Of a DNA stretch of 64,000 bases, positions 18,697 to 55,074 are shown piece after piece. Within the stretch, counting starts at the first letter, position 1. Each line of letters opens with the position of its first letter. This DNA comes from Dermanyssus gallinae. Lineage: Eukaryota > Arthropoda > Arachnida > Mesostigmata > Dermanyssidae. The stretch is taken from positions 1,190,001 through 1,254,000 of the forward strand of contig QVRM01002377.1 in NCBI GenBank assembly GCA_003439945.1, given 5' to 3'. A program made the translations under genes and the position numbers. Under the pieces are notes generated by a model. That model searched no databases and was not told the DNA's origin. It saw only the letters and a program-made list of their open reading frames with translations.

Positions 18697-18918
18697 GAAG
18701 GCTGAAGTAGGGAGGAGAGGCAAACTGGCCACTCCCATGGATACGAAGCGATGCCTAGCAGTTACCGTTCCCTGGGGGTGGGGGGGAGGCGGGTGTTAGT
18801 GGGTTTGTGAGTCCCACACTAGTCACTGGCTGTGGTGGCGCATGTACATCACGATTCCGGTAATCCCCCATATTAATGCTGAGAGGTTTCAGCATATAAA
18901 AAAAAAAAAAAAAAAAAA

Positions 18919-19010
18919 ATATATATATATATATATATATATATATATATATATATATATATATATATATGTATATATATATACACATATACATATATAT
19001 ATATATAATT
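18919..19010. repeat. (TA)n microsatellite at the R1-A 3' end
   Basis: TA dinucleotides follow the poly-A without any spacer and end in a few GTATA/CACATA variants. Confidence 0.95.
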
Positions 19011-19429
19011 TTATTAAAATAATATTCTCTTCACTCCATATTGAGTAAATACAGATATAAGATATAAACATTTTAAGATCGTCAGTGGAACGGTGTACTT
19101 GCTTTTGCAACATGAATCATGACATCCGTGTAATTGGTGGTCATCACTCGAGTCTGATAAAAAAACGCCAAATTAACATCCGCAAACTTATATTAGTAAC
19201 GCATGCGTCGCTCTGAGGTCATCTACAAAGACTAGTGTCAAGGCCAACAGATAAACAAGCCGATTGCAGCTGGTACGGTAGACTATTAGCACTCTGCCGA
19301 GTACTTCTAAGTTAGCTTTGGACAAGTAGAGTGCCGTCTAGTGAGATGAGGAACCATAACAGAATGCCCTTGCGAGCTTTATTTTCGATACATTTGATAA
19401 AATTGAATCCTTGCGTTGAGATAACTACT
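19011..19429. other. Unique spacer
   Basis: Nothing recognised. Confidence 0.35.
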
Positions 19430-19905
19430 CTAAGCTATTAAACATGCTGACCAAATTATATTGGTGCTGACCTCAGGCAAAATTCTTGTTTTTTTCGGCG
19501 AGCCTACTCTCGCGGCAATATTTAATCGTTTTAGATTGTGATACATATATTGAAAGGTAATAAAGAGCAACAAACTTTTGCTGTGATGCAAGCGATTGCT
19601 GCAAGTGAAATCGACGATGGGAGTTGAGGACGAGGTTATCGGCGTACTCACGATGTACTACTCACTGGCGGCTAACGCCGCTTAATCGCTTACCCATATT
19701 CAGAATAATAGCGGGTTGAGACGATCGCCTTGTGCAACATTCATCTTTTCGCGACTCTGTATCAAAAGTCGTCTTAACGTCTTGAACGGCAAAAAAGAGA
19801 ACGTTTTGAGAAGAGCGTTCATAATTTTGTTGAAAAGAGCAGCGAGACATGAAGCCAGAACAACCGCCCGTCGCAGATGTTCCGGACATCTGTGATTATG
19901 CGATA
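19430..19905 (-). pseudogene. LINE A-type RT fragment
   Basis: The minus strand gives, across frames, NVAQGDRLNPLLF (RT motif 4), then YADNLVLNSHRRFHLQQSLA. The latter aligns with YADDLVIYSRSRFHLQQALA of the intact LINE A RT at 36460 in this window. The catalytic box reads YADN, so the second catalytic Asp is lost, and frames are broken. The 5' end coincides with the (TA)n starting at 19906, i.e. the copy is 5'-truncated exactly at the microsatellite. Confidence 0.7.
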
Positions 19906-20022
19906 TGTATATATATATTTATAAATTTATATATTTATATATATATATATATATATATATATATATTTATAGATTCATATATATATGAATATATATATAT
20001 ATATATATATATATATATATAT
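19906..20022. repeat. (TA)n microsatellite with TTTATA variants
   Basis: Interrupted TA run; its left edge is the 5' boundary of the minus-strand LINE A-type fragment. Confidence 0.95.
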
Positions 20023-20287
20023 CATAACAATAAATCATTTATAGTATAGAGACCGCCACGTCCTGCTTATTCCCATATCTAAGAAATCATCCAGATGTGC
20101 CAACATATTTGCTGTACGTTTTTGTTATAAGAATAGTAGTATTCGATTGATTGGATGTCGCTTACCCCTAATTTGGGGGTACATACCAAAACATATTCAA
20201 TGACTTTCGCGCCAACTACAAAAATGATTGGCTGAATTAATGCTGCGTAGTGGGTGAAGTAATGTGTCGTTGTGATAAGACCCTCCA

Positions 20288-52500: not shown

Positions 52501-52575
52501 ACGCAAAAAAGTCAAACCCCTCAAGTGAATAAGCCGGAATGTCAACATCCTTCAGCCATGTCTCACTAAAAGTAA
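49571..52575 (-). mobile_element. LINE D (CR1/jockey-like), 5'-truncated
   Basis: It consists of the open ORF2, then a 3' UTR with an AATAAA signal (minus strand, near 49602) and a short repeat GAATCTTGAAAAAATCTTGA + ATC at the end (about 49575-49600). The 3' end lies about 40 bp from the (TA)n at 49501-49528. The 5' end is at about 52570, where an oppositely oriented LINE C begins. Confidence 0.8.
49799..52575 (-). CDS. LINE D ORF2: endonuclease and reverse transcriptase, open
   Basis: About 925 codons belong to the element; the frame happens to stay open further upstream to 52933 through foreign sequence, so the ATG there is not its start. The endonuclease begins in FSETWLKDVDIPAYSLEGF (the catalytic Glu block), then GDANVNLL, TCIDHIAVRN and FSDHLPVFVFI. 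The RT has KASWSSGAMGIPGKLLKLA, YVTPLYKKKGDK, YRPISLVDYVSKILEKA, QQFGFRHGRSTELALAHL, GIFLDVAAAFNCLNH, TPQGSVLGPLLFLILI and the catalytic box FADD. Further on are KCLGLILHEFM and the conserved C-terminal NIPQHIRRI. FADD instead of YADD is usual in CR1/jockey-type elements. No stop or frameshift interrupts it, so only the N-terminal endonuclease start and any ORF1 are missing. A recent insertion. Confidence 0.9.
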
Positions 52576-54167
52576 TAGAAGAAGTAATAGAATCAATAGA
52601 CAGAGCACCACGGGGGAAAGCGCACGGCAAAGACTTGATAATAAATGAACATTTGAAATATACCCCAATTCTCGCACCATGGTGGCAAGCCTTATTTAAT
52701 GAATGTTTAACCAAGGGGCAAATTCCGGAGGTCTGGAGGAAAGCGACTTTAATAGTCATTCCAAAAGGAAAGTGAGTAGAAACTGAACCAGAAGCTTGAA
52801 GGGGAATAGCAATAAAAAGCTGTCCAAATAAAATATTCTCGGAAATAATACCTAGGAGACTGGGGTCGTTCTTGGGGGAGCGGGGGTAATATCGGAGGAG
52901 CAGCATGGATTTAGAAAAGGAAAAGCAACTCACTTAGCAATTCGGAAGCTGCTAGGAGCAATCTGGGAAACGCTGTCCAGGCCGAGGAGTTGTATATATG
53001 CCGTGTTTGTAGATTTAAAGGCGGCGTTTGAGAGCTGGCAAAATCGGAGGTGCCGGGACCAGTTTTGAAGTTGCTTATTAAAAAAAAAAAGAACACGGTG
53101 CTGATTGATAACGGGGTCGGTATTTTGAGGGGTGGCTCAAACCACAGGTGTCGCACAGGGCGATGGACTGAGCTCATTGCTGTTTTGCGTACTTTTGGGT
53201 GGATTACCAGAGCGGATAAGGGCGGACTGGACCCAAGAGTAGGCCAGAATCTTACTGTACGCTGATGATGTGGTCATCTTTAATGGCAGCCTTTTCAGGG
53301 TAAAACAAGTTATGGATCGACTGGTTACATTCATGGATACAAAGGGCTTGAATGTTAACTGGGGAAGACAGTAGCTATGAAATTCCGAAGGGGCGGCCGT
53401 ATGGCCAGGGGTGACGTGGTCCAAATCAGGGGAACAGAAAATAAATTTATAAACAAATTTACATACCCTTATCGACAAGCGGTAGCAGTTTTCGATCACA
53501 CATTCAGAAGAGGGTCAGGAAGGCCACCATCGTAGCTGCGGCAACTAAATGTCCACATATGCTTTCAGTTCATGCAGCAATTGCTCTGTTTGGGATACAG
53601 ACAGCACTCATAGCCACATACGGCATTCCACTAATATGGGATAAGTTGGGAGTAGGCGAATTGCGTTTAATTGATGAGGCGAGGTTTCTCTTTTTAAAGA
53701 GGGTTTTTGCGCTATCGAATACATGCAAGAAAATAATTGTTCACGGCTTGGAGGGTGGCCCGCTGTTGACGCAAGACCTACAAAAACGATATAATCCGAA
53801 GAGAACGTGCGCCTTTGAAGTTTATATGCGGAACTGGGAAACCAAAATTAGTGAGGTGGACATAAGTATTTATGGAACAGCAGCAATGACGAGCACAGAA
53901 TGGCGGGGAAAAAGATCGACATCTAACCACGGCCATTGCAGCTCACGGATTTCATCACTTTCTCTGAAACGTGGAGGGTTTTCATGAACCACAGGATGAA
54001 TGTCAATGCAAACAATGCTGGAGCAACTGTGATCGATACCACGCCGCGGTATGCCTGGCGGTTAGGTCTGTAGCATAACTAGCAAAACGCTAGATTGTTG
54101 GTGTCTCGAAACATTTTGATGTAACATAAATACATTTGCCCAGTTTGGGTGTTAATAAAACAAATAA
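52576..54167 (+). pseudogene. LINE C copy 1 reverse transcriptase
   Basis: The plus strand starts VIEEVIESIDRAPRGKAHGK and FNECLTKGQIPEVWRKATLI (52575-52770), collinear with LINE A copy 1. It continues EEQHGFRKGKATHLAIRKLL and AVFVDLKAAFESW (about 52895-53040), GVAQGDGLSSLLFCVLLGGL (53145-53205) and LYADDVVIFNGSLFRV (53250-53300). The open C-terminal part is SVHAAIALFGIQTALIATYG, RLIDEARFLFLKRVFALS and EVDISIYGTAAMTSTEWRGK (53560-53920). It ends with CQCKQCWSNCDRYHAAVC (about 54000). YADD is intact, but at least four frameshifts break the frame. The 3' end GGGTGTTAATAAAACAAATA is joined to (TA)n. LINE A and LINE C are sister groups. Confidence 0.85.
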
Positions 54168-54185
54168 TATATATATATATATATA
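54168..54185. repeat. (TA)n between two convergent element 3' ends
   Basis: A short TA run: on its left the 3' end of LINE C copy 1 (plus), on its right the poly-A of R1-B (minus). Confidence 0.93.
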
Positions 54186-55035
54186 TTTTTTTTTTCATTT
54201 AGGGTGACACTGTAAAATGCGTGAAGCCATAGCAGTGTAGGACTCACAAACCCACTAAAGCCCAGTCGTCCTCTTTGCCCTTTATCGGGGGTGGCCGCAG
54301 TACTGTTTTGTCAAGATTACTTCACCGGGCCACTCTTCTTACCATTTAGGCTGCTTAACATTGTGGGGCCATAATTTTTACCTCAGACACAGGTTCTGCG
54401 AGTCGTCTGTTGCTCCTTGTGGAGCGCCTCTACAGAGGCTTGGCATGTCAGGGGGTTTCCCAGACGTACGTACAATAACTCGTGCTCAGTGTCGAAAGAG
54501 GCGCAGCATTCATAGCAGTGCCTTACATCGTCAGCCTCTCCTGAGTTGCACATACGGCATACATGGACTTCTGATTTACCAATGCCGTGTAGGTATTGTT
54601 GAAAGCAACGACCTTGTTTGAGGCTGTACTTTTTTTAAGATCAGAGAGTATCAATTTTGTCCACTATCCAGGACGGCCTGGCTCGATTGCTTCCCATTGT
54701 TGGCTCCATTTACTTAGGTGTCTGTTCTGCTGATTTGTAAAGGTTCTTTTGGTTTGGCTCTTAATTAAAGAGTTTCTTGATGCCAGTTGTTGAACTCTTA
54801 GTTCCTAAGGAATTTGCCTGGAGAAAACCTGTGTGGCTGCTGCGGAAGCCATGCACCTTGCTCATGCTGTGTTGAGCGCAATAGATTTTTGGGTCTTGTT
54901 GAGGAAGCGGCGTGTTCTAATTCTGGTAGTTGTGCGCTCCCATATAACATAATGCTGTCTATTACTGATGCTAAGAGGGTTTTCCGTATTTCTGCTAAGG
55001 CTTTGGCTGTTTTTTGCTGCACAGTTCACATGGGG
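54186..55035 (-). mobile_element. R1-B fragment, bounded by (TA)n on both sides
   Basis: Read on the minus strand it starts CCCATGTGAACTGTGCAGC at the (TA)n (55036) and encodes C-terminal R1-type sequence in shifting frames: CRMCNSGEADDVRHCYECC near 54520 matches the CX2C-X9-H-X4-C finger of R1-A, with H-x4-C preserved. The 3' UTR contains TTTAGTGGGTTTGTGAGTCC (54259-54240), the same block as in R1-A, and ends in about ten adenines that run straight into (TA)n at 54185. The open frames at 54798-55107 are parts of the same eroded ORF2. It is 5'-truncated. Confidence 0.8.
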
Positions 55036-55074
55036 TATATATATATATATATATATATATATATATATATATAT
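55036..55074. repeat. (TA)n microsatellite at the R1-B 5' end
   Basis: TA dinucleotides begin directly after ACATGGGG. Confidence 0.95.

Follow-up and report, generated by a model that had tools for sequence, protein, structure and literature searches.

Whether arrays of the dinucleotide TA can serve as a common landing place for unrelated long interspersed nuclear elements (LINEs) is the question raised by a 64-kb stretch of Dermanyssus gallinae DNA (contig QVRM01002377.1, positions 1,190,001 to 1,254,000; hereafter the window, with position 1 as its first letter). An earlier note on this DNA had proposed that at least four LINE families share (TA)n as their boundary. The analysis was confined to the window, which contains 12 TA arrays (found by tandem-repeat search or by run length) and no N bases; the TA runs were present where the note had placed them, with no N inside. 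LINE homology was placed with a set of 171 LINE proteins, and at least three clades with a reverse transcriptase (RT) were distinguished: R1-type, the LINE A/C clade and Jk. LINE A and LINE C were treated as a single clade because LINE A and a LINE C piece share 37% amino acid identity, and the proposed four or more families are reduced to three clades.

In this one window the association between TA and LINEs is real and non-random, and it is weaker and less exclusive than had been claimed. The balance tips modestly towards a reading in which at least three LINE clades that have an apurinic-type endonuclease (Exo_endo_phos match in the R1-type copy R1-A itself and, for LINE A and Jk, in their relatives) insert preferentially, but not exclusively, at TA arrays. 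A further statement, that several unrelated LINE clades share (TA)n as a repeatedly used landing pad on which both strands serve and elements accumulate in tail-to-tail and end-to-end order, is advanced more tentatively.

Eleven LINE 3' ends were listed (four R1-type, six of the LINE A/C clade and one Jk). A 3' end was scored when its distance from a TA run was no more than 3 bp and a 5' end when it was no more than 15 bp, with minimum run lengths of 10 or 18 bp; the control with displaced positions that the earlier note had suggested was run inside the window, by 20,000 circular shifts. Seven of the 11 3' ends abutted a TA run of at least 10 bp (shift mean 0.20) and six a run of at least 18 bp (shift mean 0.18), and neither count was reached in any of the 20,000 shifts. 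The seven are R1-A (18919), R1-B (54186), LC1 (54166), LC2 (33035), LINE A (37398), LA19 (19008) and Jk (49529). With a preliminary list of ten ends (nine 3' ends and one 5' end), 6/10 lay within 3 bp of TA, again with 0/20,000 shifts. For 5' ends, 3/10 were near TA, with shift means of 0.25 (at least 10 bp) and 0.21 (at least 18 bp); three was reached in 46 and 17 of the 20,000 shifts, respectively. The ends of R1-A, R1-B and LC1 and the 5' end of LINE A were fixed at TA independently.

R1-A (15367-18919, plus strand) carries an intact second open reading frame (ORF2, 15478-18693) with RVT_1 and Exo_endo_phos_2 domains; its 5' end was not placed. Its relatives include a protein of the mite Galendromus (39% identity), and its R1 label, which follows the earlier note, is presumptive. 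The A-run at its 3' end passes directly into TA at 18919, the position that the note had given for this end, where an array (18919-19007) is shared tail to tail by R1-A on the left and the LINE A-type copy LA19 on the right. R1-B (54187-55035, minus strand), a short and broken R1-type copy, has TA on either side, as the note had reported: its poly(A) adjoins TA at 54186, and its homology stops 14 bp before the array at its 5' side, (TA)19 (55036-55074). TA lies outside the poly(A) in both copies. Elsewhere in the window, a palindrome at 9310-9507 (and 9429-9632) has two 79-bp arms and matches the N-terminal part of an R1-type ORF2 in either orientation. It begins 5 bp past a TA array (9120-9304) and appears to be an R1 fragment folded back on itself.

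LINE A (35624-37398, plus strand) is a 5'-truncated copy that is 99% identical to its relative P0071 and, given this identity, is probably recent. TA was claimed at both of its ends. At the 5' junction this is exact, homology to P0071 starting at 35624 on the very edge of an array (35593-35623); at the 3' end it is weaker, the run (37399-37409) being only 11 bp long and the end not fully independent of TA. The same 11-bp run forms the left edge of an R1-like RT fragment (37410-37636; match to P0002, E 0.002). LA19 (19008-19902, minus strand) is a LINE A-type copy that is broken and has a TA tract on either side; its protein homology is at 19191-19888. Its 5' end had been put exactly at TA (19906); the last protein homology lies 15 bp from an imperfect TA tract (19903-20022), which places this end near TA. 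Two LINE C copies have their 3' ends at TA, in agreement with the earlier note. LC1 (52575-54166, plus strand) is broken and shares (TA)10 (54167-54186) tail to tail with R1-B; its 5' end, at about 52575, lies against Jk, with some alignments reaching 52497. LC2 (33035-34296, minus strand) has an array (32936-33034) at its 3' end and none seen at its 5' end. An insertion of LC2 into a YLDDG element, which could have told a TA tail from a TA target, was considered and rejected: the flanking YLDDG pieces are too decayed to be joined, and the YLDDG family reading is presumptive.

The third clade, Jk (49529-52576, minus strand), adds a TA-ended LINE that the earlier note did not contain. Its frame is open, starting about 76 amino acids into the protein of its relatives, and the N-terminal part was not among the matches in 46900-49500 or 55075-58000. 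Its 3' end, at 49529, adjoins (AT)14 (49501-49528). At 52560-52580 the 5'-truncated Jk and LC1, which belong to different clades and opposite strands, stand head to head with their outward 3' ends at TA; the contact itself, at about 52575, is without TA. Dual priming, in which a single array would have primed both RNAs together, each from a different strand, was rejected as a first choice: the copies look unequal in age, because the frame of Jk is open and LC1 is broken in several frames. From these frames, we infer that Jk and LC1 represent successive hits.

Two stacks result, one at 49501-55074 in the order (AT)14, Jk, LC1, (TA)10, R1-B, (TA)19, and one at 18919-20022 in the order R1-A, TA, LA19, TA. 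Tail-to-tail pairs share one array at 18919-19007 and at 54167-54186; therefore both strands must serve, as a self-complementary repeat permits. The earlier claim that both strands are involved is borne out, LINEs meeting TA in both orientations.

A mechanism may be proposed for a preference of this kind. The endonuclease would nick a T/A step, and in a TA array such steps would be offered on each strand at 2-bp intervals. Once exposed, the T end could pair with A at the 3' end of the LINE RNA, and target-primed reverse transcription would begin from there. Where the array remained beside the insert, on one flank or on both, it could be hit again, and stacks such as Jk / LC1 / (TA)10 / R1-B / (TA)19 would arise because the surviving array is open to further targeting. 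The arrays were probably lengthened afterwards by slippage; such growth after insertion is compatible both with TA as a target and with TA as an element tail.

Several observations weigh against a target role for TA, or limit it. The window was chosen because the pattern had been seen there. For LINE A, LA19 and Jk, and partly for LC2, the position given to the 3' end depends on the TA run itself, and at half of the TA runs of at least 18 bp (7/14) none of the listed LINE ends comes as close as 15 bp. R1-A, LC1, LC2 and Jk have TA at the 3' side only, as far as their 5' ends can be placed. The arrays hold 10% of TpA steps, and 7/11 has a P of 2e-5 if insertions choose among TpA steps; they hold 408 of the 779 TATA tetramers in the window (52%), and P rises to 0.33 if insertions choose among TATA. 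More than a TA-step preference is therefore needed, yet no more than a TATA preference, which alone would suffice for the count without recognition of arrays. A fourth R1 3' end (R1-58999, near 58923) is not at TA; a target-site duplication was looked for at this copy and none was found.

Finally, 3/11 copies lie at non-TA sites and are bounded by target-site duplications: R1x (42604-43467, plus strand; 15 bp, 42589-42603 / 43468-43482), LA46 (45958-46824, minus strand; 14 bp, 46825-46838 / 45944-45957) and LC3 (60883-61091, plus strand; 13 bp, 60870-60882 / 61092-61104). LA46 lies within the RT of another LINE, whose RT motifs are reunited when the flanks are joined, and LC3 within an R1-type copy, through whose YADD motif the joined flanks read; both are clean insertions, because the joined flanks restore the coding sequence of another LINE. 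The joined flanks of R1x had no protein match. In random placements, repeats of at least 15 bp were obtained in 9/3000 (R1x-type) and of at least 13 bp in 1/3000 (LC3-type) or, with 40-bp flanks, in 2/3000. The R1-type and A/C clades thus occupy both TA and ordinary sites, whereas a target-specific LINE would have all or nearly all of its copies in its target repeat. The idea of a (TA)n sink for unrelated LINEs accordingly survives as an excess far above chance in three clades, and not as a specificity. The pattern that the earlier note had named as a refutation, most copies having non-TA flanks with ordinary duplications, was seen in these three copies and not in most. The note had omitted all three, together with the R1 3' end near 58923.

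The same three copies bear on the main rival, which is that TA grew after insertion: a short TA or AT-rich entry site, or a simple repeat copied with the 3' end, would have expanded by slippage, and the arrays would be scars and not targets. We regard this as rather unlikely for the window as a whole. It has precedents: in lepidopteran RTE LINEs, simple repeats are part of the 3' end and lie inside the duplications (PMC2887409), and empty sites of maize TAFTA had 6-8 bp of TA, whereas filled ones had as much as (TA)50 at either flank (PMC5907723). The four elements with TA at the 3' side only would fit it, Jk among them, in which TA comes straight after the 3' hairpin. However, in R1x, LA46 and LC3 the element tail runs into the duplication with no TA between (a TA tail in 0/3 duplication-bounded copies, whereas an RTE-type tail would place the repeat between element and duplication), and TA is therefore no fixed component of the 3' end. 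Because, in addition, the TA at R1-A and R1-B is external to the poly(A), and the 5' ends of LINE A and R1-B also have TA, TA as a target is favoured over growth from the element's own 3' end for the R1 and A/C clades. For Jk the earlier note's rival view, that TA runs grow from element ends, is not disfavoured; it is strongest there, the duplication-bounded copies all belonging to the other two clades.

Long TA arrays are typical spots of assembly error, and the junctions could also reflect assembler joins at low-complexity TA, chance, or a retention bias by which old LINE fragments survived beside common TA arrays. The seven arrays without a LINE end are in keeping with this, and the head-to-head Jk/LC1 contact and the unmatched flanks of R1-A would fit a join or a rearrangement. 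Chance is opposed by the shift test (0/20,000), and joins by the TA runs of 11, 20, 26, 28 and 39 bp, which are shorter than one read, and by the lack of N in the window; we consider explanations of this group improbable. A preferred but not obligatory use of TA arrays by at least three clades is the reading that we retain.

Three further TA boundaries had been claimed. In agreement with the gag 5' end at 22160, a CCHC-like coding stretch, a putative ORF1 (gag) fragment, begins at about 22161 beside a TA array (22127-22161). The 5' end of YLDDG copy I at 32935 was not recovered, with no match at 32.6-32.9 kb among the 171 LINE proteins, nor was that of element F at 35598, for which a single weak RT-like match was obtained (35163-35270, E 1e-3). 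The window also contains a large imperfect inverted repeat (30655-31507, about 69% over 0.85 kb) and a Mariner-like fragment (10521-11135, minus strand) whose match to Mos1 HTH_48 is weak and falls below the Pfam cut-off. Scans of viral contig and genome contig collections gave no DNA relatives of the window LINEs; protein searches found relatives of R1-A, LINE A and Jk, as proteins without DNA, and the near relatives are mostly unnamed proteins.

If the preference holds genome-wide, it would stem from the DNA itself, with flexible and self-complementary TA steps common to several LINE endonucleases, and not from a specialised trait of one family; TA arrays would then be safe havens that collect LINEs. 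Waldo is an R1-clade LINE with a repeat target. Mino, of the same clade, inserts in (AC)n (cited in PMC3124438), and TRAS has telomeric repeats as its target (PMC2887409); these are described as cases of one repeat per family, whereas in the window several clades meet on (TA)n and at least two of them also occupy ordinary sites. Other microsatellite-aimed LINEs are Dong, at (TAA)n (PMC2887409), and the HERO families and Togen, at (TG)n (PMC4640811). The endonucleases of Dong, HERO and Togen are of the restriction type, in contrast to the apurinic type of the window LINEs. In the lepidopteran RTE elements that make microsatellites, the repeat is part of the insert, inside the duplications (PMC2887409), which is not so in the three bounded copies here.

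The earlier note had called the habit undescribed. This holds for LINEs in (TA)n within the literature searched, the coverage of which excluded two papers by Kojima and Fujiwara and in which no such report was found; stacking on (TA)n has been published for plant DNA transposons (PMC5907723, PMC4486113). MuTAnT of Medicago prefers (TA)n microsatellites, with empty and filled sites known, and TAFT of maize and Micron of rice are cited there as also choosing TA (PMC4486113). These elements share the (TA)n preference with the window LINEs but are DNA transposons. The SaTar elements of guayule and rice, which are non-autonomous Mutator-like elements (MULEs), are unrelated families stacked end to end and flanked by (TA)n, with off-microsatellite members that have ordinary duplications (PMC5907723). 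The stacks at 18919-20022 and 49501-55074, together with the duplication-bounded copies away from TA, fit this arrangement in part, although the window holds animal LINEs, which move by reverse transcription and are often 5'-truncated. SaTar-like stacking would have unrelated elements joined through (TA)n with none interrupting another; in the window, Jk and LC1 meet with no TA between them, and LC3 and LA46 are inserted within other LINEs. If the target preference holds genome-wide, the LINE stacks of the window would be a retrotransposon counterpart to the MULE stacks of plants.

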